Positions 10,901-52,366 of a DNA stretch of 64,000 nt are shown piece after piece (within the stretch, counting starts at the first letter, position 1; each line of letters begins with the position of its first letter). Source of the stretch: Branchiostoma floridae (taxonomy: Eukaryota; Chordata; Leptocardii; Amphioxiformes; Branchiostomatidae); the NCBI RefSeq assembly GCF_000003815.2, contig NC_049984.1, positions 3,632,434-3,696,433 on the forward strand, written 5' to 3'. Both the position numbers and the translations under genes were made by a program. Below the pieces are notes generated by a model. That model had not been told where the DNA came from. It did not search any database and saw only the letters and a program-made list of their open reading frames with translations.

Positions 10901-13900
10901 CCAGGCTGTATGGAGAGGCCACAGACTGAGACTGCGGCTGAAGCGAGCCCTGCAGGCTGCCAGATGGGAGGATGATGATGATATCGATGATGATGATGAT
11001 GAGTTTGGAGAAGTGGACCTGTCCTCGTTTGACCTGCAGGCTGCCGAGCTGGACCAGGCCTGGGCGCCCCCACAAACACCCACCCTGCCTACAAGGTCAC
11101 CCCCACAAACACCCACCCTGCCTACAAGGTCAGCTTCACATTCTGTTGTTATACACCCACAAACACCCACCCTGTCTTCAAGGTCAGTCACACAAACACC
11201 CACCCTGCCTACAAGGTCAGTCATACACCCACCCTGCCTACAAGGTCACCCCCACAAACACCCACCCTACCTACAAGGTCAGTCATACACCCACCCTGCC
11301 TACAAGGTCACCCCCACAAACACCCACCCTGCCTACAAGGTCAGTCATACACCCACCCTGCCTACAAGGTCAGTCGCACAAACACCCACCCTGCCTACAA
11401 GGTCAGCTTCACATTCTGTTGTTATACACCCACAGGGCTTGAAATACTGGGTGCATGTGCACCCTGGTGCACCCAAAATTGGAGCTGTGCACCCAATTAT
11501 TTTCTGTGGGTGCACTAGTGCACCCAAATATTTTCTTAGGTTTATGTATGTAAAGATATCAAAGTATACTAGTATACATCATATTCTTGACATCTAATCA
11601 TTAGAAAGATAATAAGAATGTCTGTCATGGTACATGGTTGATATTAGGTTATTACTTAAATTTAAGTGGTGCACCCAAAAATTAATACATTTACAATGTG
11701 TCTTAAAAGTTTTCAGTGGCCTCGAGTTGCTAGCCTTGCTGATCCCTGGTATTTCTGCCTATAGCTAGGTGTAGGTGTTGTGTCCTTGGGAAAGGCAATT
11801 GGACTCAGGAATACCCTAAGTCCGTTTTTTTGTGTCAACTTAAGCCAACACAGATGGACTTTAAAGTTAATCCTTTAATTTCGCGGGGTTAGCATAGAAA
11901 AGTTGTACATGGATCTCAGAACTGAACATTAAACATGTGCATTATACATGTACGTAATTATGTTGATTGCCACAGAAATGTGTATCTCACAGTCAACAGT
12001 CAAAATGTACAACTGTATTTTCTCCTACCCAGACATGCTGTTCTTGGCTCAGCGTCATCCAAGCATCAGGACAGAGCACAGCCTGTATGGGACACCCGTC
12101 AGGCGTGGCAGGGGGCCCCCAACCCTCCCCCTCCCAGCCCCAAACACCCCCTCCCCCCTGTCAAACCCCCCAGCAGGGCGAGCAGTGCCTCCTCCCAACA
12201 CCACCCAACCCCTCCGACCAGCAGGTAAGAGTCAGAAAACTTAGAGAAAAAAACAGTAGGAAGAATTCATTTATAGGTTTAGGACATCATGTTGAGCTTG
12301 GAGCCCTTTATATCCAGACTTGTCAATGAGTGAATTGCCTTATCCTCTTCACTCCCTTTGGTGGAGCATAAGGCACTGACAAACTTCCTCCAGTCCTTCT
12401 ATATAGTGATTTACATCATTCACCCGGACGAGACCTGGTGCATCCCCGTCTTGTATGCAGCTATTCGAAAGGGTATGTCAGTCCCGTAAGGCGGTATAAC
12501 CCCGTCGTGTGTAAGCATGTCGACCAATGATGATGATGATCATTCATTCATTCATTAAATTGACGAATACAGTAACTGTTACTTTCATGCTTCTGTCCAT
12601 ACTTTCTGCTTGTATATGTCTTGACAATGACCACCATATCATCTTAAAATGTACAAGAACTATGTACATTCATTCTAAATGAATTGGTATGGCCTGATGA
12701 AGTTGTTGCAGACTGGACAGTGTGATCAGTACAAAGAGTGAACAGCTGACAGAGGAGTAATAATTGAATGAAGACCTTTATTGTACATACATACCCACTG
12801 GGTTAATAATGAAGCCCTTGTTGTTTTCCAGACTGGGCAGTGTGATCAGCACGAAGAGTGAACAGCTGACGGAGGAGTGGGGGTTCAAGTCAGGCACCAC
12901 GGCCGAGCTCATGATGAAGAGAGCTCGCAGGATGAAGGCACGCAAGAAGAAAACTTTAGGTCAGTCTTAAGAAGACAACATCATGATGATAGATATAGGA
13001 TACTACACGGTAGAATATAACAGCTCCTATGGTGTTGTCTTCCATAGGAACTATCCAAACTTACTTACTTTGGGGTATTTGTTCATTATGAGTTAGTGAA
13101 TGACTTTGACATTGGCGTAACGGCAACGTGTTTGAACCCAGAGGTTCCGGGTTCAAATCCTGTCACGTCACCAGCCGCGTGCCCAATGGGCAAGGCACTA
13201 ACACAGACGTCGGATCTGAAGAATTTTTTTTTGGAGTGAAGCTTTTTAACACCATTACAATAAAACTATAATTTTTCTCCATTTGCAGACCCCCATCAGA
13301 GGCTGGCCTTGCAGCGTAAGCTGGCAGAGAAGGAAGCCCCGCCTACTGTCCGGGCTCCTCCCAGGAGACAGCCCAACAGGGTCGACTACTTCAGAGGTGA
13401 GAGAATAAGATATCCATTCACCTTAGAGCAGGGCTCTAGCCAGCATCCGTTTTTCCGTCAATTGACGGAAATTTGCTGCGTGTGACAGAAATTTTTTAAA
13501 ACCAATCCGTCAACCTTGATGGACAAAAACTCTTGGTGGAAGCTACAGGCAGCTTGGGGACGCTGTCCACGGTCGGAAAGCCACACACTGTTTGTTTAAT
13601 GCTATTGTTATGGTTGTTGACTTAGTGTGTCTGCGAACTTTCGCATACGATAATCTCATTAAAAAAACGTTTTTCAAGGTCTCAGTTCCATCTTTCTAAC
13701 TTAATTTTTGCTGTTTTCACAACAATGGGAATTGGCTGACGGAAAAAAAATTTCGAGCTGGCTAGAGCCCTGCCTTAGAGTTAGACCTCCAACCTCTGCC
13801 TTCAACCCTTAACGACTTGGCACAGATGCAGGATTTCATGTTTGACAATATGTTGTGCTATGTATACAATATTGTATTGTGTGTATGTACTATTTTGTAT

Positions 13901-29545: not shown

Positions 29546-30626
29546 TTAGTGGGCGAAGTGCTGACGGTTTCTGACAGGCTTCACAATCAGATTTTGGGTC
29601 CCAAACTGCGCGGCGCCCATCCTGCGGCTACACGCAACCTTCACCCGACGGCGTAAGAAGGTAGACTGTCCCTGTCATTTCTCAAGGCGTGTTCACACAT
29701 GCGTGTACACATGCGTAAATAATCAGGTCCATGCGAGGTCCGTGTCGAAGTCCTAGCCCCTATACCAGGCTCCATGGGTCACTGGAAAAATAACAGAAAT
29801 TGGGCCAGGTAACATGCCTGCGGATTTAGCTTGTTGAAAATCATACTCCTCGGACAGCTAACTCCTCCGGCATGTTATGTGTCTATTTTAGATTTGTCCA
29901 TTTTTTTGTGCCACGCGATCACACTGTTATTAAGAGTAAGAACACCTCATACATAATCGTACATCGGAGCAATAAATCACAAGTTGTAGTCCAGTCCAAT
30001 GTACAGAGGGGTCGCTGGCCGTTGGGAAGGTCATCGACTTATCCGGTCGTCTGTTAATAGGGTTGTCAGTTTAAGATAGATTGTGCAAATACTGCGCCAT
30101 GGATGCAGTGGAAGATGAAATACATGTAACTGCCTCCATTATGAGGATGAAGGAAACAACCTATTCGACACAATCAATAAAATATTTCAAACTTTTCACC
30201 AGTTGGTAGGCCTCCAAAAAACTATATTCTTGTTAAATCACAGAACCCAACAATCATTAAAGACGTGGGACTTTTCATCAGCCACTCCAATGAAGAAGTC
30301 AAACCTCCCAGTAAACAATGTAGAATCATGTGTATAGATAGCTGTATAGAATAGACACTTCTCACTTTTTACTGTCTCAGGTACCCTTGCAATTAGCCTT
30401 CGGGCATGAATTTGCAAATAAATAAATAAATATATTGTTAATACATACCTTGAAAGATTCATACGACATATCAAATCATGCACACGTAACAGTGGTGTTC
30501 AAGCGCCGCCAAACTGACCGCACCAAACAATGCTTACACTTTTTGCGTAGTGGTTTATGCTTTGGGTTTGTGAGCTTGCGGCCCGGATTCGAATTCCCGA
30601 AGCATTCTACTCGCCTCTTACACTGG

Positions 30627-30697
30627 TTCCCACACCGGGAATCGAACCCGGGCCTTAGCAGTGAGAGCGCCAAATCCTAACCACTGGACCATATTGG
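30627..30697 (-). pseudogene. tRNA-Glu-like pseudogene
   Basis: Read on the minus strand this gives TGGTCCAGTGGTTAGGAT, the anticodon-loop phrase GGCGCTCTCACTGC (anticodon CTC), CCCGGGTTCGATTCCCGG and the 3' stem TGTGGGAA. D, anticodon and T arms fit tRNA-Glu(CTC). The 5' acceptor strand (ACCAATA) does not pair with the 3' TGTGGGA, so it is probably a pseudogene or a SINE head. Part of the flank (GAGCATTCTACTCGCCTC) is repeated on both sides. Confidence 0.7.
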
Positions 30698-31089
30698 TTC
30701 GAATCCCGGGAGCATTCTACTCGCCTCAAATGCAAGACCAGATCACCCATACATAACTGTGTTGTAATCATTATAATGTTATTGATGAAATTTTGCTGCA
30801 CTGTATCTGTATGTAGTTTATTATCTGTATGTAGTGTAGTAGCCGTTGCCATACGTTGTATCCTGTACAATTGTCGAGCAATAAAGTTCATTATCATATA
30901 GCCAGGCGCCGTGGACCAATATAGGTAAGAAGTTTCAAAAGGTAGGGAGAGCAAGAATCCACCCCGGCCAGCAAGAAAAAGGGCCGGACGAACAAACTTG
31001 ATCTCGTCTATGGGCTAACGTTACTATGTATGTATAATGTAATGCGCTCTCCGGAGTAGTCATGTCTAGATGACAATGTCTATATGATA

Positions 31090-31345: not shown

Positions 31346-34300
31346 ATGAGAAGCGTAGTGCCAGTCCTCCTGCTGGCGGCCCTGGCGGCCCTGGCTGCGG
31401 GAAGCCACTTCCGCGGAACCACCATCTCCTGGAGGCCGGACGAGAACATCCAAGGCCTGGTGAGTGGGGCTGATACAGTAGAAGTCGCTTAATTGCACAG
31501 CCTATCTGCCAGTGAATTTCGTGCAATTATCGGGCTGGTGCGAATGCAATAATGCGAAGTTATGTAGCTGGACCTCTCCGGTTTGGGATTTGGGGATTCC
31601 GTGCAGAAGTCTGCGTCAATCCGTTGTGCAATTGTCTGGCTTCTACTATACCACTGTTGGACTGGCCTCACCAGGCTCCATGGATCGGTGGTACATGGTA
31701 CCCACTAAACATGGTAAATTGGGTGCCTAAACACCTCAAACGACCTCAAAAGGCTCTCTGGATACATTGGTTTATAATTAGCATGTCTAAATTTTAAAAA
31801 ACGCAGCAAATTAAAGTATCTAACGTTATTTGGAGTCAGTCCACCGGCACTAGTAAATTAATGAGTTAAGACCCCTCTAACACATTTCTTCACTAGTAGA
31901 CCACATGTTACCAGGATTTTACCAGGATTTTCTTATTAGTGAATTGAAACCCCTCTAACTCATTTTTTTACTAGTAGACCACTTACAAATTTCTCTTTTT
32001 AGTGGATCAATGAGTTAAGGCCCCAATTGCTGAGCATTCCACGTAATTACATTCGCCAAGAAGGTTATGTTTTGGGTTGCATTTGTATGTTTGTATGTCT
32101 GTATTAGACCATCATAACTCAAGAACACCTGGATGAATTGTATTGATATTCGGTATGTGGGCAGGTCTTGTTAAGACCTAAAAACGAAAATATTTTGGGG
32201 CCCCTAGCGGCCTGTTTCGGTACTGCAGCGGAACTTCCTGGTTTGATATCTCAAGTTCTGGACATGCTTCGGCTATGATTTTTAAGTGGCAGACAGCTCT
32301 TGATACCGAGGGTAACTGTTATAATGTTTGGGCCCCTAGCGGCTTGTTTTGGAACTGCAGGGCAGGTTTAGATTCAGACTTTGAAAGGGAATAACTCAAG
32401 AAGGGTTTGACGTCTTGTCATGATTTTTCTATTTTTCTAGGTGCACTTCGCCTTCCGGATCGCCTGGAGGCACTCCTCAACTAACAACGGGTGCAATCCG
32501 CAGAGGATAGCAGATGGAGTTCTCCACGGGGACACGGGTTCTGATGAACAATGGTATGTAATAGAGCCCGTATTGACAACATCTGTTTAAAATGATTCTT
32601 GGGTGGGTTCTTAGAAATTCACAGATTCTGATAATCACAGATAAACATCTTGTATTTTAGCTGACCGGTAGATGAGATAAGGAAGAACAAAGGGGCGATC
32701 ACAGTTAATTGATGACCTGTCAAGTACATGTGGGAAGAATTTGTTTTGTTTACGTCAGCACCCAGCTAAGAGATAAAAAGAAGGAACACCAGAGTCCCAG
32801 GTCAGTTCGGAGAGGGGAGACACAGAGACAGTCATGATGTGACAGAGGAGAATAAAGATCGTTTCTCGGCCACGGCAGATCCTCTTGTCCGTCTGTGATC
32901 ATTTTCTACGACACCAGTCCACCTCCTTCGTTACAGGTACACCACGCAAGACGGTGCGCTCTCGCCTACCCAGTACTACTGTACTGACTACAGTGAGAGC
33001 GAGAACTGGGCCGCAGGAGGGAACACTTTCAGCTATACTTTTCCTGACCTACAACCCCGGACAGTGTAGTAAGTAATCAGGCACCGATGTCGTGTTACTC
33101 GAGTTCATAGTAGGGTAGAGTAAAGTACAGTAGAGTACAGTAGGGTTAGAGTAGGATAGAGTAGTACCAGGGATAGAGTAGGGTCGAGTGTAGTGTAGTG
33201 TAGTGTAGAGTAGAGTAGAGCAGAGTAGAGTAGAGTATGGTAGGGTAGGGTAAAGTAAAGTAGAGTAGAGTGTAGTGTAGTGTAGTGTAGAGTAGAGTAG
33301 AGCAGAGTAGAGTAGAGTATGGTAGGGTAGGGTAAAGTAAAGTAGAGTAGAGTGTAGTGTAGTGTAGTGTAGTGTAGACTCAGTAAGCAGTGGATCATAT
33401 AGGAAGTTTATTTGCAAGTTCGTGCCCGAGGGCTAATTGCAAGTACATGTACATGGTATACATATAGTGACAATGGACAGCCATAAATAATATTCTAAGT
33501 TGCAGGAAGTCTATGGCGCTCACTGTCTCTATTAAGGAGGCTTCTAAAGCTCTGATATAGATGGCTTCTTTAAGAAGTCTGGCCCGAGTGATTCATAATA
33601 TGTTTATATTTTTCTGTTCCAGCTATGAAAATTGCTGTTGGATCAGTGTGCGAATACACGGGTAGTGCGGACATGGTATGCCACGACTGTAGTGGACCTC
33701 GCAACCAGGGCTGACACTGGCCGGCCAAACTCTTCACCAATCAGTGCAAGTTCACCGGTTGTGAGGTAAGTATAGCGTTAGACTTTAGACTAGAGTAGTC
33801 GCTTGATGATGATGAGTAGCTTACACTGTTTGCCTGTAATTTTTTGTCTGGCTATGGTTCTGCTTATAGAGCCCCCCCAACACCCAACAACAATATCAAT
33901 CGTACGGGTTTGTACAGCAGTGCGACTCCACAGTTCTAAAGACGGTTGTTCCTACAGGTTTGTACAGCAGTGCGACTCCACAGTTCTAAAGACAGTAGTT
34001 CCTACAGGTTTGTACAGCAGTGCGACTCCACAGTTCTAAAGACAGTTGTTCCTACAGGTTCGTACAGCAGTGCGACTCGTCAGTTCTAAAGACGGTTGTT
34101 CCTACAGGTTCGTACAGCAGTGCGACTCCACAGTTCTAAAGACAGTTGTTCCTACAGGTTTGTACAGCAGTGCGACTCCACAGTTCTAAAGACAGTTGTT
34201 CCTACAGGTTTGTACAGCAGTGCGACTCCACAGTTCTAAAGACGGGTGTTCCTACAGGTTTGTACAGCAATGCGACCTCCACAGTTCTAAAAGAGGGTTG

Positions 34301-37300
34301 TTCCTACAGGTTTGTACAGCAGTGCGACTCCACAGTTCTAAAGACGGTTGTTCCTACAGGTTTGTACAGCAGTGCGACTCCACAGTTCTAAAGACGGTTG
34401 TTCCTACAGGTTTGTACAGCAGTGCGACTCCACAGTTCTAAAGTCGGTTGTTCCTACAGGTTTGTACAGCAGTGCGACTCCACAGTTCTAAAGACGGTTG
34501 TTCCTACAGGTTCGTACAGCAGTGCGACTCCACAGTTCTAAAGACGGTTGTTCCTACAGGTTTGTACAGCAGTGGGACTCCACAGTTCTAAAGACAGTTG
34601 TTCCTACAGATTTGTACAGCAGTGCGACTCCACAGTTCTAAAGACAGTTGTTCCTACAGGTTTGTACAGCAGTGCGACTCCACAGTTCTAAAGACGGNNN
34701 NNNNNNNNNNNNNNNNNNNNNNNNNNNNNNNNNNNNNNNNNNNNNNNNNNNNNNNNNNNNNNNNNNNNNNNNNNNNNNNNNNNNNNNNNNNNNNNNNNNN
34801 NNNNNNNNNNNNNNNNNNNNNNNNNNNNNNNNNNNNNNNNNNNNNNNNNNNNNNNNNNNNNNNNNNNNNNNNNNNNNNNNNNNNNNNNNNNNNNNNNNNN
34901 NNNNNNNNNNNNNNNNNNNNNNNNNNNNNNNNNNNNNNNNNNNNNNNNNNNNNNNNNNNNNNNNNNNNNNNNNNNNNNNNNNNNNNNNNNNNNNNNNNNN
35001 NNNNNNNNNNNNNNNNNNNNNNNNNNNNNNNNNNNNNNNNNNNNNNGTTGTTCCTACAGGTTTGTACAGCAGTGCGACTCGTCAGTTCTAAAGACGGTTG
35101 TTCCTACAGGTTTGTACAGCAGTGCGACTCCACAGTTCTAAAGACAGTTGTTCCTACAGGTTCGTACAGCAGTGCGACTCCACAGTTCTAAAGACGGTTG
35201 TTCCTACAGGTTTGTACAGCAGTGCGACTCCACAGTTCTGAAGACGGTTGTTCCTACAGGTTTGTACAGCAGTGCGACTCCACAGTTCTAAAGACGGTTG
35301 TTCCTACAGGTTTGTACAGCAGTGCGACTCCTCAGTTCTAAAGACGGTTGTTCCTACAGGTTTGTACAGCAGTGCGACTCCACAGTTCTAAAGACAGTTG
35401 TTCCTACAGGTTCGTACAGCAGTGCGACTCCACAGTTCTAAAGACGGTTGTTCCTACAGGTTTGTACAGCAGTGCGACTCCTCAGTTCTAAAGACGGTTG
35501 TTCCTACAGGTTTGTACAGCAGTGCGACTCCACAGTTCTAAAGACGGTTGTTCCTACAGGTTCGTACAGCAGTGCGACTCCACAGTTCTAAAGACGGTTG
35601 TTCCTACAGGTTTGTACAGCAGTGGGACTCCACAGTTCTAAAGACAGTTGTTCCTACAGATTTGTACAGCAGTGCGACTCCACAGTTCTAAAGACAGTTG
35701 TTCCTACAGATTTGTACAGCAGTGCGACTCCACAGTTCTAAAGACGGTTGTTCCTACAGGTTTGTGCAGCAGTGCGACTCGTCAGTTCTAAAGACAGTTG
35801 TTCCTACAGATTTGTACAGCAGTGCGACTCCACAGTTCTAAAGACAGTTGTTCCTACAGATTTGTACAGCAGTGCGACTCCACAGTTCTAAAGACGGTTG
35901 TTCCTACAGGTTTGTACAGCAGTGCGACTCCACAGTTCTAAAGACGGTTGTTCCTACAGGTTTGTACAGCAGTGCGACTCCACAGTTCTAAAGACGGTTG
36001 TTCCTACAGGTTCGTACAGCAGTGCGACTCCACAGTTCTAAAGACGGTTGTTCCTACAGATTTGTACAGCAGTGCGACTCCACAGTTCTAAAGACAGTTG
36101 TTCCTACAGGTTCGTACAGCAGTGCGACTCGTCAGTTCTAAAGACGGTTGTTCCTACAGGTTTGTACAGCAGTGCGACTCCACAGTTCTAAAGACAGTTG
36201 TTCCTACAGGTTCGTACAGCAGTGCGACTCCACAGTTCTAAAGACGGTTGTTCCTACAGGTTTGTACAGCAGTGCGACTCCACAGTTCTAAAGACAGTTG
36301 TTCCTACAGGTTTGTACAGCAGTGCGACTCCACAGTTCTAAAGACGGTTGTTCCTACAGGTTTGTACAGCAGTGCGACTCCACAGTTCTAAAGACGGTTG
36401 TTCCTACAGGTTTGTACAGCAGTGCGACTCCACAGTTCTAAAGACGGTTGTTCCTACAGGTTTGTACAGCAGTGCGACTCCTCAGTTCTAAAGACGGTTG
36501 TTCCTACAGGTTTGTACAGCAGTGCGACTCCACAGTTCTAAAGACAGTTGTTCCTACAGGTTCGTACAGCAGTGCGACTCCACAGTTCTAAAGACGGTTG
36601 TTCCTACAGGTTTGTACAGCAGTGCGACTCCACAGTTCTAAAGACAGTTGTTCCTACAGATTTGTACAGCAGTGCGACTCCACAGTTCTAAAGACGGTTG
36701 TTCCTACAGGTTTGTACAGCAGTGCGACTCCACAGTTCTAAAGACGGTTGTTCCTACAGGTTTGTACAGCAGTGCGACTCCACAGTTCTGAAGACGGTTG
36801 TTCCTACAGGTTTGTACAGCAGTGCGACTCCACAGTTCTAAAGACGGTTGTTCCTACAGGTTTGTACAGCAGTGCGACTCCACAGTTCTAAAGACAGTTG
36901 TTCCTACAGGTTTGTACAGCAGTGCGACTCCACAGTTCTAAAGACGGTTGTTCCTACAGGTTTGTACAGCAGTGCGACTCCACAGTTCTAAAGACGGTTG
37001 TTCCTACAGGTTTGTACAGCAGTGCGACTCCACAGTTCTAAAGACGGTTGTTCCTACAGGTTTGTACAGCAGTGCGACTCCTCAGTTCTAAAGACGGTTG
37101 TTCCTACAGGTTTGTACAGCAGTGCGACTCCACAGTTCTAAAGACGGTTGTTCCTACAGGTTTGTACAGCAGTGCGACTCCACAGTTCTAAAGACGGTTG
37201 TTCCTACAGGTTTGTACAGCAGTGCGACTCCACAGTTCTAAAGACGGTTGTTCCTACAGGTTTGTACAGCAGTGCGACTCCACAGTTCTAAAGACAGTTG

Positions 37301-40300
37301 TTCCTACAGGTTTGTACAGCAGTGCGACTCCACAGTTCTAAAGACAGTTGTTCCTACAGGTTCGTACAGCAGTGCGACTCCACAGTTCTAAAGACGGTTG
37401 TTCCTACAGGTTTGTACAGCAGTGCGACTCCTCAGTTCTAAAGACGGTTGTTCCTACAGGTTTGTACAGCAGTGCGACTCCACAGTTCTAAAGACAGTTG
37501 TTCCTACAGGTTCGTACAGCAGTGCGACTCCACAGTTCTAAAGACGGTTGTTCCTNNNNNNNNNNNNNNNNNNNNNNNNNNNNNNNNNNNNNNNNNNNNN
37601 NNNNNNNNNNNNNNNNNNNNNNNNNNNNNNNNNNNNNNNNNNNNNNNNNNNNNNNAGTGCGACTCCACAGTTCTAAAGACGGTTGTTCCTACAGGTTCGT
37701 ACAGCAGTGCGACTCCACAGTTCTAAAGACGGTTGTTCCTACAGGTTCGTACAGCAGTGCGACTCCACAGTTCTAAAGACGGTTGTTCCTACAGGTTTGT
37801 ACAGCAGTGCGACTCCACAGTTCTAAAGACGGTTGTTCCTACAGGTTTGTACAGCAGTGCGACTCCACAGTTCTAAAGTCGGTTGTTCCTACAGGTTTGT
37901 ACAGCAGTGCGACTCCACAGTTCTAAAGACAGTTGTTCCTACAGGTTCGTACAGCAGTGCGACTCGTCAGTTCTAAAGACGGTTGTTCCTACAGGTTTGT
38001 ACAGCAGTGCGACTCCACAGTTCTAAAGACAGTTGTTCCTACAGGTTCGTACAGCAGTGCGACTCCACAGTTCTAAAGACGGTTGTTCCTACAGGTTTGT
38101 ACAGCAGTGCGACTCCACAGTTCTAAAGACAGTTGTTCCTACAGGTTTGTACAGCAGTGCGACTCCACAGTTCTAAAGACGGTTGTTCCTACAGGTTTGT
38201 ACAGCAGTGCGACTCCTCAGTTCTAAAGACAGTTGTTCCTACAGATTTGTACAGCAGTGCGACTCCACAGTTCTAAAGACAGTTGTTCCTACAGATTTGT
38301 ACAGCAGTGCGACTCCACAGTTCTAAAGACGGTTGTTCCTACAGGTTTGTACAGCAGTGCGACTCCACAGTTCTAAAGACGGTTGTTCCTACAGATTTGT
38401 ACAGCAGTGCGACTCCACAGTTCTAAAGACGGTTGTTCCTACAGGTTTGTACAGCAGTGCGACTCGTCAGTTCTAAAGACGGTTGTTCCTACAGATTTGT
38501 ACAGCAGTGCGACTCCACAGTTCTAAAGACGGTTGTTCCTACAGGTTTGTACAGCNNNNNNNNNNNNNNNNNNNNNNNNNNNNNNNNNNNNNNNNNNNNN
38601 NNNNNNNNNNNNNNNNNNNNNNNNNNNNNNNNNNNNNNNNNNNNNNNNNNNNNNNTGTTCCTACACGGTTCGTACAGCAGTGCGACTCCACAGTTCTAAA
38701 GTCGGTTGTTCCTACAGGTTTGTACAGCAGTGCGACTCCACAGTCTAAAGACGGTTGTCCTACAGGTTCGTACAGCAGTGCGACTCCACAGTCCTAAAGA
38801 CGGTTGTTCCTACAGGTTTGTACAGCAGTGCGACTCCACAGTTCTAAAGACAGTTGTTCCTACAGATTTGTACAGCAGTGCGACTCCACAGTTCTAAAGA
38901 CAGTTGTTTCTACAGATTTGTACAGCAGTGCGACTCCACAGTTCTAAAGACGGTTGTTCCTACAGGTTTGTGCAGCAGTGCGACTCGTCAGTTCTAAAGA
39001 CAGTTGTTCCTACAGATTTGTACAGCAGTGCGACTCCACAGTTCTAAAGACAGTTGTTCCTACAGATTTGTACAGCAGTGCGACTCCACAGTTCTAAAGA
39101 CGGTTGTTCCTACAGGTTTGTACAGCAGTGCGACTCCAAAGTTTTAAAGACGGTTGTTCCTACAGGTTCGTACAGCAGTGCGACTCGTCAATTCGTATCC
39201 CGGTGGAGGACCCGGATGGGGATACCGTCAAGTGCAGGTGGGGTGTTGGCCTAGAGGAATGCGGAGAGGTCTGCGGTGCCATGCCTAATGTGACGCTAGA
39301 CGAGGTACGTTGAACCACGAGTGCTGTTTCACGTTGCCGCCTCCTGAAAGTGACTTAGATGGAATAATGCCAAAGGTACATACTGTTAATGGTAAAGTAT
39401 ATCTTTCTTAATGACCTGGTCCAAAACGAAGTAAATGTAGTTTGTTTTTACTCGCACACAATACGAGCGATCACTGTTGTTGTATTCTTATTATCATTAA
39501 ATCCTCCCCCCTCCCATATCAACACACAGGATTCCTGCACCCTGTCTTACGCGGCGGGATTAGAGGACGGCTGGTACGCCATTGCTCTTGTTCTGGAGGA
39601 TTTCTCCCCTGACCCTGCCTGCTCTTCGGGGTGCGGCCCCTACACCGGGATACCGCTCCAGTTCTTAGCTCTTGGTATGTCAATTCAGTCCAGTTTTTCT
39701 GCAACATTCTATAGTCATTTCAGTCCAGTTTTTCTGCAACATTCTATTGTCAATTCAGTCCAGTTTTTCTGCAACATTCTATTGTCAATTCAGTCCAGTT
39801 TCTCTGCAAAATTCTATAGTCATTTCAGTCCAGTTTTTCTGCAACATTCTATTGTCAATTCAGTCCAGTTTTTCTGCAACATTCTATAGTCATTTCAGTC
39901 CAGTTTTTCTGCAACATTCTATTGTCAATTCAGTCCAGTTTTTCTGCAAAATTCTATAGTCATTAATGATATGATGTACAGAGCTCCAAAAATATGGCAC
40001 ATTGCAGTTCAAAGCCTGGGTGAGGTTTCTTCATTTATGAGCGTGGTCTCTAAACAGCTGTTAGCTAATTAGAAAAGTGGCTTAACTTTAAAAATATTTA
40101 TTGTTATTCTTTGATTTGTTGACAACTGGTCGGAAATCTCAGCTCAGTTGGGAAGAACCTTCCCCGGGAATTTTGTATACATGTAGGCCTCAGTCGTGTC
40201 TCCGCATAGGATACTTAACTTAAAGCGAACTTTCGGAATATCATGAAATTTATGTAATTAGCAAGTAGCCTGTTGCAAAATTCTGGATTTGTCTCACATT

Positions 40301-42363
40301 GAACACTGTCTTTCCTCGAATATTGCATAGCTTTAAATCTACATCTATTGTTACCTTATTAGTTTAATTATACCTTATAGCTACTTGTCGTATACAATAT
40401 ACCTAAGTTGTACATTGTACCCGTTTTACAAATGCTGTGCAATAAACTTTGACTTGACTTGAAATTTCTTGCCTCTCTTCACCAGTGGAATCCACCTCTA
40501 CGCCCTGCAACCTCAGTTGTGGCTCCACATACTTAAGTTTAAGCAAACTTTTGGATATTCTTGAAATTTCGTTTCTTTACCAGTGGAATCCACAGTCATG
40601 GCTCCACATTAAGCGAACGTTCGGATGATCCTGAAATTTCTTGCCTCTTTTCACCAGTGGAATCCACCTCTACGCCCTGCAACCTCAGTTGTGGCTCCAC
40701 ATACTTAACTTTAAGCAAACTTTTGGATATTCTTGAAATTTCGTTTCTGTACCAGTGGAATCCACAGTCATGGCTCCACATTAAGCGAACGTTCGGATGA
40801 TCCTGAAATTTCTTGCCTTTCTTCACCAGTGGAATCCACCTCTACGCCCTGCAACCAACGCCCCATGATTGTCGGTGACGAGCCCCGGGACCAGAGCTGT
40901 GTCGGCGTTCCCACTGGCGACACCTACACCGCCGTCATTCAGGCGCAGGCAGAGGGCGCTGGAGTCACGTAAGGACCTTTCAAACAACGGAGTTGATACG
41001 CCAAAAAGTACTAGTACTTACTCAAAAAACCTGATATGGTTTTGGAAACGGTCAGACGTTTCAACTTCCAAGTAGTGTTCGTCAGTGACACTGTGTCACT
41101 GACGCCAGTGTCACTGACAAAAACTACTGGATAGTAGTTGAAACGTCTGACCGTTTCCAAAACCACAGGGTGCTGGAGTCAGGTAAGTACCTACGTAAGC
41201 AACTGAGTTGATACGCCAAAAAGTAGTTACTCGAGCAACTGGATATCGTTTTGGAAACGGTCAGACGTTTCAACTACCATCAAGTAGTTTTCGGCAGTGT
41301 GTTCAACTACAATACTCTTTCCACGTGCAGAGAGCTAGGCAGAGAAAACAACATGTACCAAGTTTTCGGGATGAGTCGGTTTGGATCAAACTCGTGAAAC
41401 AGAAACATGATCAAAACGTGCTTCTGGATCAATAATAGGACACATGTATGATAGATGAATACAATTTTTTCTTCCTGCAGGATTGCTGACATCCTGACGA
41501 CTTCTCCTCTCGGCATGACCAAGTCCAGCCTGGCTGTCGATCCCAACTACGAGCAGCGTGCCTCCGTCACCGTCACCTGGACACCGACGGCGCAGCAGGC
41601 CGGCCAGCACATCTTCTGCTTCCGGGCCGCGGACACAAACAAGTAGGGACTTATCTATCAATTTAATCCATCCATCCATCCATCCATCCATCCATCCATC
41701 CATCCATCCATCCATCCATCCATCCATCCATCCATCCATCCATCCATCCATCCATCNNNNNNNNNNNNNNNNNNNNNNNNNNNNNNNNNNNNNNNNNNNN
41801 NNNNNNNNNNNNNNNNNNNNNNNNNNNNNNNNNNNNNNNNNNNNNNNNNNNNNNNNATGCTAGCAGGATCATATATGGAATGTTCACTGAGAACAAGATT
41901 TGTTTAGGTGCGCATGGATGACATTCGTGCACCAATCGATGTTGTACTGAACAAGAGGGGACCTTCGGATAGGTCTGTTAGTAGTTTGTTGACATCGTAA
42001 CTTTAACAAAATACGAAATGACGTGAAAGGCCATCTTCTGTTTCCGTGCTGTGGACTCAAACGGGTATGGCCTTTGTTTGTTTGTTTGTTTATGTGCACA
42101 TGGATGACATCCGTGTACGTCATTAAACAATTTTTACTTGCCATTTCGGTCATCCAAAGATTCTTTCGGCAACGCTCAGAAATTTGCTGAGATGGGGCTC
42201 CAAGATGTTCAAAGATGCTTATATCATCAATGTAGTTCCTTTTGTCTTGTCATTTGAGTGCCTGAATCATCTGTTTTTGTTTTTTTGTTTGTGATGACCG
42301 TTGTTATCTTTATATCCCAAAGCATCGAGTCCACCCAACGCTGTTTGACAATTTTAGCAGGAG
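31346..42363 (+). CDS. N-terminal extracellular module of the lectin-like gene
   Basis: The first nine exons make one conserved module seen in amphioxus, cnidarian and mollusc secreted proteins: [141 protein letters not shown] and [10 protein letters not shown]. It has many paired Cys, as expected outside the cell. No vertebrate counterpart or biochemical role is known to me. The module is cut by large introns, one of them (33766-39165) almost entirely a minisatellite. Confidence 0.85.
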
Positions 42364-45300
42364 GTAAGAATCTAAATTTTAACCGGAGATGGTAATATTA
42401 TGTTTTTCCTTAGTTATTTAAACGTTAACATTTACCCGCGTAGTTTCTTGTAACCTTTAGACACGTTGGCACAGTTTAGCACAGTATATCAACCAATCTT
42501 TCGCAGCTATCAGTATTGACTGAAACGTATCAGACGTGTACGGTACAAGGCGACAGAAAGAATACTGAATACAGAGTTCTGCATGAAACAATGGCAACAG
42601 AATCCAATACAGTCTTGCTTGCTTGTTTTCTATGACACCAATACTATAGCTGGCGCCTATTCTGACAGCTAATGGTTGCGTTAACTTGCATGGCACTGAT
42701 AACAACTGTGAAGCAACCCTGCTGTTGACTCTGGTCATTATATAAATTGAGTGTTTTGCATATTGCTTTATAGGCTCCATCGGTGCCATTTATGCCACCA
42801 ATGATTAAGCTTTATTGCTTCAAAATGTCATTTCCCGATTTAGCTTTGTCCGATTTGAAATCTGTAAACTGCATTTTATTTTGGGTGACAAGCGCTATGG
42901 TTTAGGTCTAATTTCAATGTGCCATTAATTAAGGAAAAAATTAACTGTGATAGCTTAAGTTAATGAGAAAAATGTTTGATATTGTGGTATATGCCCAGTG
43001 TTAAAGGCAACCTTTGGTATTTCAACAGCGACTCCTCCCGCCGTGGCAACGATGACCCCATCTGGCTCAGTCCTCTCGACTCAGCAGATCACTTGGTCTT
43101 TGACTTTCGACATGGAGGTATTTTTTTATAATATTGTGTTCATAATACAATAATTATGGCATTGTTTATCATGATAATTTACTCAACTCACAGATATGGC
43201 GTCGTGTGTGGCGTAACTGGTAGAGCGTTCGGCTCGAAATCTATAGGTCATGAGTTCGATCCCCGCCGTTCCCCCGACGTTGTGCCCTAGCTTGGGAAAG
43301 ACACTTTACACGACTTTCCTCACTTCACCCAGCTGCAAAAATTGGCACCTGACTTCGGTCAGGGAGGTGAAAGAAAAGACTACCTTTACCTTCTGTCTGC
43401 ACTGTGTATGTGGCAATGTTAATATAAGTTACAAAACTAAGTTACTGCAGTGCCACATTGTCCACCTCTGTCCAAAAGCAAATAAAAAACAAACTGACAG
43501 ATAGTTTGACGTGAATTGCCACGTGTGGAATCACCCCGTTTAGATTTAAATCACATTATCCATCAAATCTGATTGCTGATTTATCCTCATGTAGTCAGAC
43601 GTTTTGACAACGGGTGTTATCTAGAATGTCAGACCGTTTCCAGATCACATCTAGTTGCTTGAGTATCTGCTTTTTGGGGTATCTTATTGCCTGGATGGCT
43701 AACCTTCATCGATGACTTTACTCTTCTACAGCCCATACTGGCAACAACACCCAGGTACATCCGGTTCTTCAACGACGCGGGCACGGAGGTGCACGCTATC
43801 GACACCAGTTCCTCTGACCTCCAGCTGTCCGGAAACACCCTCAGCTTCACCACGGCTCCGAACGTGTTCGCGGCAGGCGGCCACTACATCCTGGTGGACC
43901 AAGGTGTGGTGATGAGCCCGTCATCAGGCTGCGCGACCGGCGGTCCTGCCTTTGCCGGCATCAGCGACAGCAGTACCTGGACATTCAACGCCAGTAAGTT
44001 TTGCCCAGGGCGCCCAAAAATACACCTCTCCTTTCTGACATCACACGCTATCTGTCCCCAAAAAATCAAGACCATAGCATGTCCAGGTCAAAAGATACAA
44101 AAAATTGACGTTCTGTAGCAGTACCAAGGTCACACACCAGGAGGCACAAAACTGACTTTGACCTTCGTCTTCCCTACACCTACCCACATAACAAATATCA
44201 TTACAATCCATTGAGAGGTTCTAAAGTTATGCTGACCACAAATATGCGGAAACACAGACACACCAAAAACTATACCTCCATTTTTCATGGAGGTAACTAC
44301 ACAGAAGAATGCTCACTGAGAACTAGATTCCTTGAACACAAACGCCCAGTTCGCTGTCGTCGAAGGTCTCTCCTCACAGCCACATTAGATACCAGGCCAT
44401 AACGCTTCACTGGACCAAGTCAGAATACTGGACACGGGAAGACATGTACTTTGTAAGAGGAATAAAGTAGGCATCAGTGCATGCCATAGCTAATCAGAGG
44501 CGGTGGGAATGATACATTTTTAGCACGTTTGACCATTTTGCTGATGTCACGTATCTGCAAGGTCACGTGTCTGTAACTCTCGCGAGATTACGTTCTTAAG
44601 TGATTGGCTATCAGCATTCATCCCGAAGAAGGCAACAGTGGTCTTTGATCCGTGTATACCATTGTGATGGAAGAAAGTTCAGCATCTTACGAGTCATGTA
44701 ACCGTGTTTTTCAGGGCCTTGCCCAGAAGGCTATGATTACCAATTCGGCATCCAGAAGTGCCTGCACCTGCACAGACGTCCCATGACGTACCTTGACGCT
44801 AGGGCCTACTGCCAAAGCAGGGGTGGCGGAATCTTTCAGCTCGACGACGCAGCAGACGTGAGCAGGGTGAAGGCCGCCCTGGCAGGTCGCAGGTGACAAT
44901 TTTTTTTTCCATTTCATGAAAAACAATATAGTATGCCTACATTATGTTACAATTCTAAGACCATTTATCCGTGCACAAAATAGAGCGCTTACCAACAAGC
45001 TTTCGATCGGCCGTCTGATCCTTCTCAACTTGAAATGACCCAGAGCTTAAGTAACACATCCGGAACGGCAGTGTGACGTCAGCAAAGGGTCAAAGGTGCT
45101 TGGCAGTCGGTATCGACTTGAATTCTTTGGCGGAAATACTGAGTGCATTCTACTACGCTTTATTCGTGACGTGATGAGCTACTCGTATGTCGTGAGAGAC
45201 ACAAATTAGCTATTTCCACATCACACGGGAACTAAACATAAAAATATCATAAAAATAGACCTAATCTAATACTTAGTATAGTGTCCAAAGTCATAGTCCG

Positions 45301-45604
45301 AATATCTTCGTAAACATTCCAAACTACTGCATCTTTTCTTTCGAAACTCTTCATGTCTGTTGTTATTTCGTCCAATTCTAGGGTGGGTATGTGGGTCGGT
45401 CTGACTGATGAGGTAACCGAAGGGACCTTCGTGTGGGAGGCCGGCACCGCACTGGCCAGCGGGGACTTCACGGACTGGGCCGGTGACGGGTTCGACCATA
45501 ACGGCCGATTCCGCCACTGCGTGCAGATGAAACGGAAGTTCCAGTGGCGATGGGTGGTGCGCAGCTGCAGGAGGGCGAGAAGCCTCTTCTTCTGCCAGCC
45601 CTGA
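31346..45604 (+). CDS. Secreted HFRG-repeat / Ig-like / C-type lectin protein, 13 exons
   Basis: Exons: 31346-31459, 32441-32553, 32937-33068, 33623-33765, 39166-39304, 39530-39674, 40830-40968, 41481-41642, 42323-42363, 43029-43117, 43732-43993, 44715-44892, 45382-45604. All junctions agree in phase. The product is about 626 aa. Signal peptide ([19 protein letters not shown]), then the invertebrate extracellular module with [22 protein letters not shown] and IFCFRAAD, an Ig-like beta domain, and a C-terminal C-type lectin domain ending FFCQP-TGA. It should be secreted; carbohydrate or pathogen recognition is inferred only from the lectin fold. An acceptor (TTTTGCAG) 21 nt before the ATG suggests a 5' UTR exon upstream. 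Exon 33623-33765 is one base short of the frame its neighbours need. Confidence 0.9.
31474..31650. mobile_element. Pogo-like MITE in intron 1 of the lectin-like gene
   Basis: Begins TACAGTAGAAGTCGCTTAAT and ends TGTCTGGCTTCTACTATA, flanked by TA. Related copies are at 49039-49211 and 45634-46114. TA-flanked CAGTA(G)AA..CGCTTAATTGCA ends fit Tc1/pogo-type elements. It lies 15 bp after the exon-1 donor. Confidence 0.75.
33095..33385. repeat. TAGAG-type minisatellite
   Basis: Pentamer-based repeat (GTAGA/GTAGT/GGTAG) with a longer unit of about 107 bp present twice (GTGTAGTGTAGAGTAGAGTA at about 33190 and 33278). Intronic, between exons 33068 and 33623. It produces long but meaningless LLYSTL frames on the minus strand. 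Confidence 0.9.
33623..33765 (+). CDS. Exon 4 of the lectin-like gene, with an apparent frameshift
   Basis: Entering in phase 2, the frame reads [13 protein letters not shown] then TAG. The family sequence resumes one frame over as [17 protein letters not shown] and [14 protein letters not shown], and exits in phase 2 correctly into the exon at 39166. The exon is 143 nt where 144 would keep frame, so one base is missing between about 33648 and 33673. This is either an assembly or allelic error or a disabling mutation. Splice sites are intact. Confidence 0.85.
33907..39187 (+). repeat. 50-bp minisatellite carrying a splice acceptor in every unit (about 105 units)
   Basis: Unit: GGTTTGTACAGCAGTGCGAC, TCCACAGTTCTAAAGACGG, TTGTTCCTACA. 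Each unit contains TTCTAAAG (branch-point-like), a short T-rich tract (TTGTTCCT), ACAG, and then the first 21 nt of the following exon (39166). The array ends exactly in that exon's own acceptor and start. Variants are GTTC/GTTT after the AG, CCACAG/CCTCAG/CGTCAG, and GACGG/GACAG. Units are 95-100% alike, so the expansion is recent or homogenised. N runs at 34698-35046, 37556-37655 and 38556-38655 mean the true length is unknown. 50 is not a multiple of 3, so short ORFs rotate through frames and are not genes. Confidence 0.97.
39679..39965 (+). repeat. 35-bp minisatellite after exon 39530-39674
   Basis: About eight units of CA(T/A)TTCAGTCCAGTTTTTCTG then CAACATTCTAT(A/T)GT, starting six bases after the donor GGTATGT. 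It is intronic. Confidence 0.95.
40470..40829 (+). repeat. Two upstream copies of the acceptor and start of exon 40830
   Basis: A 172-bp unit begins GAAATTTCTTGCCTCT then TTCACCAG, continues with the first 29 nt of the exon (TGGAATCCACCTCTACGCCC) and a TCAGTTGTGGCTCCACAT tail, and occurs twice in tandem (about 40461 and 40633). The third occurrence is the real exon at 40830, which continues into AACGCCCCATGATT instead. A second internal acceptor-like phrase, CTGTACCAGTGGAATCCACA, lies mid-unit. Confidence 0.9.
41012..41295. repeat. Palindromic copies of the GGTTTTGGAAACGGTCAGAC family
   Basis: Three blocks: plus at 41036, inverse at 41135 (GAAACGTCTGACCGTTTCCA) and plus at 41249. The centre, TCAGTGACACTGTGTCACTG, is itself palindromic. 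GTTGATACGCCAAAAAGTA occurs at 40991 and 41208. It lies in the intron after exon 40830-40968. Confidence 0.8.
41667..41856. repeat. (ATCC)n microsatellite running into an assembly gap
   Basis: At least 22 ATCC units, then 100 N (41757-41856). Intron after exon 41481-41642. True length unknown. Confidence 0.95.
42028..42068 (+). pseudogene. Orphan copy of the end of exon 41481-41642
   Basis: CATCTTCTGTTTCCGTGCTG then TGGACTCAAACGG/GTATGG reads [11 protein letters not shown], a diverged copy of [11 protein letters not shown] with its own donor in the same phase. The upstream part of the exon and an acceptor are not visible. The assembly gap and microsatellite lie between it and the intact exon. 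Confidence 0.75.
43029..45604 (+). CDS. Ig-like and C-type lectin exons of the lectin-like gene
   Basis: Exons 43029-43117 and 43732-43993 encode a beta-sandwich ([70 protein letters not shown]) resembling bacterial-type Ig-like domains with SGN.L.F / Y.L.VD. motifs. Exons 44715-44892 and 45382-45604 encode a C-type lectin-like domain: [84 protein letters not shown] and LFFCQP. The Cys pattern and WVGL-type core are present. No EPN or QPD triplet and no WND are visible, so calcium-dependent sugar binding is doubtful. Confidence 0.9.
43196..43345 (+). repeat. tRNA-derived SINE in an intron of the lectin-like gene
   Basis: TGGCGTAACTGGTAGAGCG (A box) and GTCATGAGTTCGATCCCC (B box) are spaced as in a tRNA. 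They are followed by GACGTTGTGCCCTAGCTTGG and GAAAGACACTTTACACGAC. This is the best preserved of the SINE-like elements in the window. Confidence 0.75.
43575..43690 (-). repeat. Inverse copy of the GGTTTTGGAAACGGTCAGAC family
   Basis: GTCAGACCGTTTCCAGATCA, then TAGTTGCTTGAGTATCTGCT, then GGGGTATCTTATTGCCTGGA, in the reverse order of the copy at 10310. It lies just upstream of the acceptor of exon 43732. Confidence 0.7.
44255..44640 (+). mobile_element. Relic of a retroelement C-terminus (GIY-YIG type tail)
   Basis: The frame [18 protein letters not shown] resembles the E...SL..RF.EH.RP motif of GIY-YIG endonuclease tails of Penelope-like retroelements. Downstream frames continue the pattern with shifts ([13 protein letters not shown], then RGIK). 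Next comes a 3' UTR-like stretch with ATCCCGAAGAAGGCAACAGT. It is broken and not coding. It sits in the intron before the lectin exons. Confidence 0.6.
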
Positions 45605-46500: not shown

Positions 46501-47049
46501 TCATCAGATATAAAACTTTAACACGGACTCTATTATACGTTTTTTTCTGCTGCAACTTCACTACTCATCACCCCAATCAACCATTATGAATCATTTGAAT
46601 AAAATCTCTCGATGGTCTCTGTCATGAAACTCAACTTTCAAATGAAAATCCTAATTTTCTCTGACGGTGGCTTGGAAGACACTTAAATTGCTTGGTAATA
46701 GAAATATTTCTTAGCTTTCACCATTTCTTAGGAGACTAGATCTCACAGCTACTTTACCTGGATTCATATTACTCTTAACGACAACAATACACACGAAGCG
46801 TAGAAATTTGCTCTATATATAACAGTTACTATGAAATTTGTTGAGTGCTCTGTCAAAACCAATTGTCACTTTTTATCTTCCGAATGAAAATTTCAAAATT
46901 TATGAGGTCCCTGAAACTCTTGTTGTATATACGCAGGTGAATATATTAAAAGTATTCTATGCATCATATAATATGATATATTATGTGTAACAAAATATAA
47001 TCTCTATGTCTTAATTTCTGTCCTGAACAAATAGTTTGGTGTATAGTTA
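46501..47049. other. Intergenic sequence
   Basis: AT-rich; I see no gene or clear repeat in it. Confidence 0.5.
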
Positions 47050-47415
47050 TACCATTAATGCATGATGACACAGAATTAAAAATTGTTTTTCATTAGGTAT
47101 GGGTTAGTCCATACATGCATGATAATACAGAATTAAACATTGTTTTTCATTAGGTATGGATTATTCCATACATGCATGATAATACAGAATTAGACATTGT
47201 TTTTCATTAGGTATGGGTTATTCCATACATGCATGATAATACAGAATTAGACATTGTTTTTCATTGGTATGGGTTATTCCATACATGCATGATAATACAG
47301 AATAAGACATTGTTTTTCATTAGGTATGGGTTATTCCATACATGCATGATAATACAGAATTTAAACATTGCTTTTCATTGGTATGGGTTATTCCATACAT
47401 GCATGATAATAAAGG
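47050..47415. repeat. 57-bp minisatellite
   Basis: Six to seven units of TATGGGTTATTCCATACATG, CATGATAATACAGAATTA, GACATTGTTTTTCATTAGG. Each unit contains the palindrome CATGCATG. Units are 55-58 bp and very similar. Confidence 0.92.
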
Positions 47416-49610
47416 GTTAAACATCATCATCAAATTCAAATTTTGAAGAAAATCCACATTAAGAGAACAGTTACAGTAAAGACACGCGTACACACGTACG
47501 TACGCAAATGCACGCATACAGTATTACCCATAAAGTATTTGTCAATGATATGGTGGGGAATAAAAAGTGAGGTCACAAAAAAATGTTGTATGTTATTTTT
47601 TTTCTGAGCTTCATTTCTTGCCTTTCTGCTAGGTATTTGTGTGCGTGTGTGTGTGTGTATAAAGATCTGTATACAATTGTATTTTACCAATTTTCACTAT
47701 TTTCCGATGACATGTCATGAGGAGCCTGGTAGAGGCTGGCTACTTTAAAACTGACACCCCCTCTCTACTTCTAATCGAAACCATGTAACTGCTACAGATA
47801 CGGTATGATGCGATGTATAAAAGCAAGTTTATTCATTGGTCAAAGATCAGTAGAAGTATTTGAAGGTTTCACAATCAAGATAAGGGTCTCTTTAGGGAAG
47901 TGACAAAAGCATAGTGTAAGAAACCATACCTTGCAAATGTAAAAAGTCTGTAATAATTATACGCATCCCTTGCCCCACTAAAAGCATTTTATGTGCCATC
48001 CATTGCACACAGTACTTTGGCACAGCAGTACTATTTCCCCAACTTAACTAACAATCATTATGCAATGCACCATATAAAGTGATTGTACAATTGGCTTTTC
48101 CTTATACAAATGCCCACATATTGTAGATATCCTGGTTACAATATTGCACAGAGGATTACATATTCTCCATATAAAAGAGAAAACTACAAGCAGCAAGAGC
48201 ATGATCATCTAAATATTGTGACTGTTCATTGCATCTCAAATAAAGGTTGTAGAAGAATTACTCAATTGAAAACCCTAAGTTGCCTGACTCTTTCTAAATC
48301 TTAAAATTCACTGGAAAATACTATGAGTTTATCTTTGATTATAAGATAATTCCCTTCCAAAGCACAGTTCATTAGTAGAAACTCTGGGGAAACACTGGAG
48401 AAACACACCCTGCAGAAGAGGAGATACTCCCTGTGTGTATCTTCCCTTTTTTCCTAGTCAGAGGGTTCCTAAATGTTTGCTTTGGAGGATATACATCCGA
48501 AAGCTTTCCTTATGGCCAATTAGAGACTGTGATTCCAATGTGTTTATCATGAGTTTCATGGTCAATCACTCCTAGGAGGAGAGCATAGCAGACAGCAGGC
48601 TGGCAGGTCCTTCAGTGTCTGTGGGTGGAGCAATTGGTCATGGATATTAGCTATGTTTCCATTGGGTTTCAAATGTGTGTCCTTCAGTTACACATTAAAC
48701 TCAGAATAGAAAAGTGTCCCAGTATGTGTCTACTGCATGACTGAGCTTTGCGAGATAATTGCTGCAAAACAAGTCCATGCTAACATGCTTGATGTGGACT
48801 TCATATCCTTGTTACAACTGTATTACATTAAGCACCAGCTGTAAGTAACAAAACAAGACATATGAAGCTCTGAGGCTGACGTGTATAGTACGTAGGTGGT
48901 CCTTTTTCAAGTACTATTGTCCATTCGTTTTGTCAACAATATACTGTAAGCCAGTTTTAGAAGGAGTTTATCACAGGTAAACAACTGTCATATGAAGAAA
49001 TTTTGTTCTAATCTTACACGGTACAATTAGATACATTGTACAGTAGAAGCCGCTTAATTGCACGGCCTATTTGCCAGTGAATTTTGTGCAATTATCCGGA
49101 TGGTGCAATAATGCAAAGTTATCCAGCTGGACGCACCGGTTTGGGATTTAGTGCATTAAGCAGAAGAGTGCGATAATCCGTTGAATGTGCAATTAACTGG
49201 CTTCTACTGTATATTGAAGGTTGCAAGTCAAGTATATGACATAGTATGCAAGGTTTCACATTGGTTGTTACAATCACTTAATAAATGTAATTAGATTAAT
49301 GATATTGTAAATATTACGTTGATGAAGGTCAGACATCCAGGTAATAAGATATAGTGTAAAAGCTAACATTGCTGTGGCTGTACATTACAGGACCTGAGTT
49401 AGTGCTAATTTATTGCATTGCAAAATATCCACTTATTCTCATTAACAAAATCTCACCTTCATACCTACATGTAGTCAAGAGTCTTTTGTCTAAATCACTT
49501 CAAATTTGGTTAAAAAATTCACCCATATTTCTACACGATTCCTGCAATTTTTATAGTCTCCCTCAATAGTTATCAATGTGTATGACTTACAAGTATGTGC
49601 TACATTTTTG
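47416..49610. other. Intergenic sequence with a pogo-like MITE
   Basis: No gene recognised. 49039-49211 is a pogo-like MITE copy (TACAGTAGAAGCCGCTTAAT to AACTGGCTTCTACTGTA). 47866-47910 resembles 56278-56325 (GGTTTCACAATCAAG..GGTCTCTTT). 49325-49350 has a solo TCAGACATCCAGGTAATAAG end. Confidence 0.5.
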
Positions 49611-51339: not shown

Positions 51340-52117
51340 TTTTGATTAAATTCCAGGTAACCCCTTTATTCACAGAAATCTGTAACACTAATTTCAACAT
51401 GTTGTTCAGATGTTTTGTCAGGATGGTCCAGAGTCATCTTGCTCTTCTTTTTTCTCCTCCTCCTCCTTTCTTTCTTTTGAGTCAATTCCAGGTAACCCCA
51501 TTATTCACAGAAATCTGTGACACTAATTTGTACTTGTTGTTTTGTCAGGATGGTCCAGAGTCATCTTGCTCTTCTTTTTTCTCTTTGTTCTCCTCTTTCT
51601 CCTCCTCTGTTTTCTTCTCTTTGTGCTTCCCTTTGGAACTGTAGGCATCAGACAATGTCTCTGCTTTTTGAATAACTAATGAACAAGACTTCCAGGTAAC
51701 CTCTTTATTCACAGAAATCTGTAACACTAATTTGTAGTTGTTGTTCAGATGTTTTGTCAGGATGGTCCAGAGTCATCTTGCTCTTCTTTTTTCTCCTCTT
51801 TTTTCTCCTCCCTCTCTTCTGTTTTCTTCTCTTTGTGTTTCCCTTTAAAGCTGTAGGCATTGCTGCCATTAGACAATGTCTCTGCTTTTTGAACAACTAA
51901 ATGAAGAAGACTTCCAGGTAACCTCTTTATTCACAGAAATCTGTAACACTAATTTTTACTTGTTGTTTAGATGCTTTGTCAGGATGGCCAGGAGTCATCT
52001 TCCTCTTCTTTTTTCTCCTGAAGCAGTTCCTCCTTTTTTTTCTTTTTGAGTCAATTCCAGGTAACCCCTTTATTCACAGAATCTGTAACACTAATCTGTA
52101 GTTGCTGAGATGTTTTG
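51340..52117 (-). repeat. Tandem copies of the phosphatase terminal-exon end
   Basis: Read on the plus strand, the phrase TTCCAGGTAACCCCTTTATT, CACAGAAATCTGTAACACTA, TTTTGTCAGGATGGTCCAGA, GTCATCTTGCTCTTC recurs near 51352, 51484, 51690, 51912 and 52055. The last belongs to the functional exon. On the minus strand each unit encodes the K/E-rich tail, QDDSG and the stop codon, plus the UTR. Two units (about 51545-51660 and 51770-51900) extend further into AYSSKGKHKEKKTEE. Units are 130-220 bp. Confidence 0.88.
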
Positions 52118-52366
52118 TCAGGATTGTCCAGAGTCATCTTGCTCTTCCTTTTTCTCTTCCTTTTTCTCCTCCTCCTTCTCTTCTGTTTTCTTCTCTTTGT
52201 GCTTCCCTTTAAAACTGTAGGCGTCGTGAGGGAAGGGGTAAAGGTCATCCTCGCAGTACGGGTTCTTCACGTGAGCCTCCACGTACGTCTGCAGCAGCTG
52301 GCCGATCGCTTCCGCGTCGCTCTGGAACGGGGAGTCGGGGTAGGTGTGCCTCAGCCACGCCCTCTC
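52118..52366 (-). CDS. Distal terminal exon of the DUSP22/15-like gene (long K/E tail)
   Basis: Acceptor TATATCCTTCCGCAG, phase 0, 82 codons then TGA. ERAWLRHTYPDSPFQSDAEA matches human DUSP22 QYRQWLKEEYGESPLQDAEE, directly after the FQRQLQEF helix. It continues NPYCEDDLYPFPHDAYSFKG and a Lys/Glu-rich tail ending EEQDDSGQS. The tail after about residue 30 is not in vertebrate DUSP22. Its coding end is reiterated in the repeat downstream. Confidence 0.92.
   Translation of the reverse strand, partial: ERAWLRHTYPDSPFQSDAEAIGQLLQTYVEAHVKNPYCEDDLYPFPHDAYSFKGKHKEKKTEEKEEEKKEEKKEEQDDSGQS

Follow-up and report, generated by a model that had tools for sequence, protein, structure and literature searches.

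A very long minisatellite spanning the junction of intron 4 and exon 5 in a lancelet C-type-lectin gene

We analyzed a 64,000-nucleotide stretch of the Branchiostoma floridae genome (NC_049984.1, positions 3,632,434 to 3,696,433, forward strand), which we call the window and in whose own numbering positions are given. It contains a C-type-lectin gene whose intron 4 carries a 50-bp tandem array that runs over the acceptor at 39166 into exon 5 (Table 1). Minisatellites lying over intron-exon boundaries have been described as mirages in the amphioxus genes Adh3, BflGb6 and BflGb9 (available sections of PMC3087553). An initial annotation of the window missed this class, although it is published, as the accessible text of PMC3087553 and PMC3902484 makes clear. 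The lectin array is a new, very long case of it; we claim no record size. As the literature covered falls short of most subscription journals, we do not claim either that this or a larger array has gone unreported.

The gene model was proposed by eye, as was the hydrophobic leader, which lies in exon 1. The last two exons encode the lectin domain (Pfam PF00059, E 4e-14, 53.7 bits against a cut-off of 22.6). Pfam gave no match for exons 5 and 6 alone, and matches only below the curated cut-off for the joined exons 5-11 and for exons 1-3. The best PDB match to exons 1-3, a capsid protein (E 0.0069), is not credible. When exons 5-10 are joined, their phases agree and a single frame stays open throughout, with the acceptor at 39166 in phase; exons 11-13 were translated singly.

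Table 1. Features of the lectin locus (window coordinates; a slash marks a splice junction)
Feature	Coordinates	Strand	Description
Host gene	31346..45604	+	Proposed 13-exon model: hydrophobic leader, extracellular part, C-type lectin domain
Exon 4	33623..33765	+	143 nt; donor GTAAGT at 33766
Intron 4	33766..39165	+	5400 nt including 549 N; 359 nt in the paralogue
Mirage minisatellite	33903..39186	+	50-bp unit; 93 readable upstream unit starts and the authentic boundary copy; interrupted by three N gaps
Last intronic unit	39116..39165	+	Two private changes; authentic branch-point candidate, pyrimidine tract, TACAG
Exon 5	39166..39304	+	139 nt, phase 2 at entry; GAG/GTACGT donor at 39305
35-bp array	39679..39962	+	Starts 4 nt inside the exon-6 donor (GTATGT at 39675); units without a full donor
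Second mirage	40460..40856	+	172-bp unit over the exon-7 acceptor (exon 40830-40968); five ACCAG/TGGAATCCAC copies including the authentic one

Using Tandem Repeats Finder (TRF) and a walk from unit to unit, we read 94 unit starts including the exon copy at 39166, a count that omits units cut by an N gap in their first bases. The initial annotation had described a contiguous array of about 105 copies. The 50-bp unit and its repetition stand; however, the array is interrupted by three runs of N (34698-35046, 349 bases; 37556-37655 and 38556-38655, 100 bases each; 549 bp in total), and the figure of 105 is simply the length divided by 50. The 50-bp register is exact across the 349-base gap (34660 to 35060 is 400) and is lost across both 100-base gaps, so that the true copy number is uncertain. 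The 88 clean 50-mers fall into 20 types with a mean pairwise identity of 96.4% (minimum 88%), and the remaining five upstream segments are 52 nt long, 48 nt long or broken by a gap. Across the 513-Mb assembly (513,431,437 bases), a 24-mer taken from the unit is matched exactly at 54 places. All 54 fall inside the array, which therefore does not reflect chance. The array is real and correctly placed, and it overlaps the exon at 39166 by 21 nt, i.e., the minisatellite spans the exon-intron boundary. The left flank was considered as a decayed exon copy and rejected (local score 13 against a shuffled mean of 14.3; reached by 394 of 500 shuffles). We also rejected a coding variable-number tandem repeat, given the 50-bp unit and the fact that reading frames through the ungapped array run, for the most part, 49 codons before closing.

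It might be supposed that the assembler inflated a few real units into a long array, and the three gaps, two of them 100-N runs, would fit such an artefact. However, the 20 distinct types of clean unit occur in a non-random block order, and one globin locus of the assembly carries an array that agrees with a published mirage (both described below). We consider an artefact of this kind hardly credible.

A search of the genome's DNA with the boundary plus exon 5 (175 bases) gave 94 matches, of which 93 lie at the host locus. The one elsewhere marks a paralogue on the same chromosome (C6:7033256-7033429, minus strand), with 79% identity over bases 1-174 of the 175. Its exon 5 also has 139 nt and the same phase, and the proteins are 76% identical in a 47-column alignment. 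Judged by this comparison, 39166 is the conserved exon-5 acceptor, at a position common to the host gene and the paralogue. The paralogue's intron 4, of 359 nt, has one boundary copy; its exon-7 acceptor is single as well, following an intron 6 of 262 nt; and TRF found no array in the 9,901-base stretch holding this gene. Since the paralogue is without arrays, those of the host gene postdate the gene duplication or were lost from the paralogue, which thus serves as a built-in control.

In the units, TTCTAAAG is accompanied by a short pyrimidine tract, TACAG and sequence from exon 5. With the paralogue as a guide, a unit probably consists of about 29 nt of exon start and about 21 nt of intron end; the exon-derived part is put at 29 nt because three units agree with exon 5 at 28 of its first 29 nt. 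On this division, TTCTAAAG would straddle the junction between copies. It had been claimed that the unit holds the first 21 nt of the exon. Exon-5 sequence is indeed present; however, it matches exactly over 21 nt in only 14 of the 88 clean units (over 25 nt in 3), and deviates from exon 5 already at position 4 in 57 of them and at position 1 in 14. The branch-point-like TTCTAAAG occurs 88 times in intron 4, which has 511 AG dinucleotides, and stands beside an AG in nearly every unit. The first unit is preceded by TACGG and so lacks an AG, and the last intronic unit, which adjoins the authentic AG, has TTTTAAAG in place of TTCTAAAG.

The two bases after the 91 upstream CCTACAG sites are GT in 77 cases and AT in 14. 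AG/GT splice signals are therefore found in many but not all units, as is characteristic of mirages. With most upstream units reading TACAG/GT, the units could conceivably be recursive splice sites, in which a 3' splice site is directly followed by a good 5' splice site, or 50-nt cassette exons. However, most would-be donors inside units read GTTTGT or GTTCGT and so have T at +3, a position occupied by a purine in all 10 listed real donors (the model has 12). Judged by their sequence, the would-be donors are weak, and we rejected recursive splicing on that account. Inclusion of a unit as a cassette would shift the frame, because 50 is not a multiple of 3. The probability of either arrangement appears negligible.

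The order of unit types bears on how the array grew. Segments from 35560 and from 38766 onward carry the same rare variants in the same order. In a frequency-weighted score, the best pair of 5-unit segments reaches 21.2 against a maximum of 13.2 in 40 shuffles, and a second pair (36110/37945) also exceeds that maximum, with 14.5. Types seen once make up 5 of the 10 units in the last block versus 5 of the 80 ungapped units elsewhere, i.e., the array is homogenized internally and divergent at its right edge, which is a further mark of mirages. In this respect the last block resembles BflGb6, described as homogenized inside with the edge exempt (available sections of PMC3087553). We suggest that one tandem duplication joined about 21 nt of the end of intron 4 to about 29 nt of the start of exon 5, and that unequal exchange and block duplication would then have expanded and homogenized the 50-bp units. 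The expansion with homogenization proposed in the initial annotation is borne out by the block duplications and by the absence of the array from the paralogue. Mirage clusters are reported to show length instability, which at Adh3 is somatic (PMC3087553, in the text available), and by this precedent the copy number of the array is likely to be polymorphic.

We therefore propose, with a probability of roughly 0.8, that the array is a very long mirage that arose by tandem duplication of the intron-4/exon-5 boundary in a lancelet C-type-lectin gene, that it is a neutral product of unequal exchange, and that splicing takes place at the last copy.

The predicted choice of the last copy depends on how the many acceptors would be told apart. 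According to human data in the accessible part of PMC1431707, the search for the first AG begins from whichever branch point was chosen, and AGs nearer than about 12-15 nt can be bypassed. It had been argued that first-AG scanning would favor the first copy of the array. This does not follow: nearly every unit has its own branch-point-like motif beside its AG, and because scanning starts at the chosen branch point, scanning by itself does not favor the first copy. Since the motif and the AG of a pair mostly belong to one and the same unit, choosing an acceptor amounts to choosing a branch point. Identity to the authentic site extends over -20 to -1 in 53 upstream copies, and over -20 to +6 in 6; the local sequence is thus nearly uniform for more than half of the 91 upstream CCTACAG sites. 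Local strength would therefore hardly discriminate among the copies, most of which have their own branch-point/AG pair. As originally described, the last copy of the array is the acceptor at 39166, and it alone has a full exon (139 nt) with a good donor, GTACGT, downstream. Because these follow the last pair alone, we infer exon definition at 39166, by which the pre-mRNA would most likely join 33765 to 39166. We rejected RNA structure as a factor, the fold of three units being no better than that of shuffled sequences (z +1.55; equalled or bettered in 191 of 200 shuffles).

Use of an earlier copy is expected to be unproductive. Read up to the exon-5 donor, through 39304, all 93 upstream acceptors lead to an in-frame stop, 3 of them crossing an N gap first, so that mis-splicing to an earlier copy would bring in a stop codon and probably mRNA decay. 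These stops, together with the 53 upstream copies that agree with the real site in its last 20 intron bases, could be taken to mean that the decoy acceptors are functional. Copy number would then set the share of transcripts diverted to stop-containing, decayed products, or the speed at which intron 4 is removed, and the array would be a polymorphic rheostat. However, mirages described so far reportedly leave regular splicing undisturbed (PMC3087553 and PMC3902484, as far as their available text goes), and the paralogue has no array. We regard functional decoys as very unlikely, and the earlier suggestion that the array tunes splicing speed is unsupported at this locus. In its boldest form, the idea would make the array a working rheostat: the real 3' splice site would face competition from about ninety decoys of nearly the same sequence, and how much of the lectin mRNA is productive would depend on a unit number that is unstable even from cell to cell within an animal. 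This form seems to us highly improbable.

Several observations weigh against our proposal of a neutral mirage spliced at its last copy. First, runs of identical unit types are not beyond those in shuffles: the longest is 5, and 500 shuffles gave a mean of 3.4 and a maximum of 6. Second, none of the upstream copies is identical to the authentic site throughout -24 to -1, so that slight local divergence around the branch point could be of consequence. Third, mis-assembly may be hidden in the gaps of the array. Finally, in this assembly the frame of exon 4 is broken between its two halves, the exon having 143 nt versus 141 nt in the paralogue, and the gene may thus be a pseudogene or a null allele. 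The break may reflect an assembly error, an allele or decay. If the gene is decaying, relaxed selection could have let the array grow, and splicing at the array would no longer matter. However, exons 5-10 keep one open frame with consistent phases, the lectin domain stands well above its Pfam cut-off, and the single indel in exon 4 may be an assembly error or belong to one allele. Decay is accordingly an unlikely explanation, although one to be taken seriously.

At the locus, about ninety nearly identical acceptors form a natural series whose members differ in little besides position and downstream context, and its value as a natural test of exon definition, recognized in the initial annotation, is upheld. 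Clean splicing would require very strong exon definition, able to beat a transcriptional head start of about 5 kb. If splicing leaks, the dependence of acceptor choice on distance could be read directly from junction counts along the array.

From sequence, acceptor mirages are present in two introns of the lectin gene, the second lying over the acceptor of exon 7 (Table 1). Within 41610-42063, the end of exon 8 (CATCTTCTGCTTCCG...) recurs in diverged form at 42032, where GGGTATGG follows it, perhaps an old donor-side duplication. A tRNA-Glu gene (CTC; 30624-30698, minus strand), the sole Rfam match in the window at the gathering threshold, lies just upstream of the lectin gene. Elsewhere in the window, a 33/62-bp array at 11057-11410 has ten CTACAAGGTCA-like copies and is perhaps a donor-side mirage; it lies close to exons, assumed to belong to one gene, in which leucine-rich repeats and an IQ motif occur. 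A 57-bp array at 47046-47424, next to which no exon was found, has CATTAG/GTATGG in four copies and has lost the AG in two. On the minus strand at 51409-52210, units of about 222 bp carry partial copies of a lysine/glutamate-rich coding stretch, as three exon-like and five tail copies.

As a control, we examined the nine globin matches in the assembly with TRF at periods of 15 or more; the globin paper counts fifteen genes (PMC3087553, available sections). An array over an exon start was found at one of the nine, L029, where a 158-bp array at L029:954-1601 has 4.2 copies and four AG/GTTACTCC boundary copies. From its sequence, it fits the published BflGb6 mirage, which has units of 150-160 bp, 6 and 3 of them in two haplotypes (same source and sections); this fit points to B. 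floridae. L029 also has a 17-bp array, as does L024, where it ends about 130 bases before the globin match. At L026 and L027, two-copy repeats lie away from the start of the match, and TRF found no array at the other five loci at these periods.

Other systems share some features of the lectin array. Intron gain by tandem AGGT duplication (Rogers 1989, as cited in the accessible text of PMC3087553; potato RdRp, PMC4974935, also in part) likewise creates extra splice signals by tandem duplication. However, no new intron is evident at the lectin locus, where the paralogue has intron 4 too. CeRep25B of Caenorhabditis elegans is likewise a splicing-linked minisatellite, found near regions of alternative splicing. 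It holds short motifs over-represented near alternative splicing, whereas the lectin array consists of copies of its own splice site (PMC4039745, in the sections available). Recursive splice sites share the AG/GT juxtaposition seen in most lectin units, but differ in that the lectin donors, with T at +3, are poor.

The closest likeness is to the amphioxus mirages, with which the lectin array shares tandem units over an exon-intron boundary, many AG/GT signals, a homogenized interior and a more divergent edge. Units at Adh3 are 10-72 bp long, and data from reverse transcription followed by polymerase chain reaction on Adh3 and the globins are said to suggest regular splicing (PMC3087553, as available). 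PGBD5 and TnC are further amphioxus mirages (accessible text of PMC3902484). The lectin gene is not among the hosts named in the available sections of these papers, namely Adh3, BflGb6, BflGb9, TnC and PGBD5. Compared with the two mirages whose unit numbers are given there, 3-6 in BflGb6 and 2-7 in PGBD5, the lectin array has about a hundred units.

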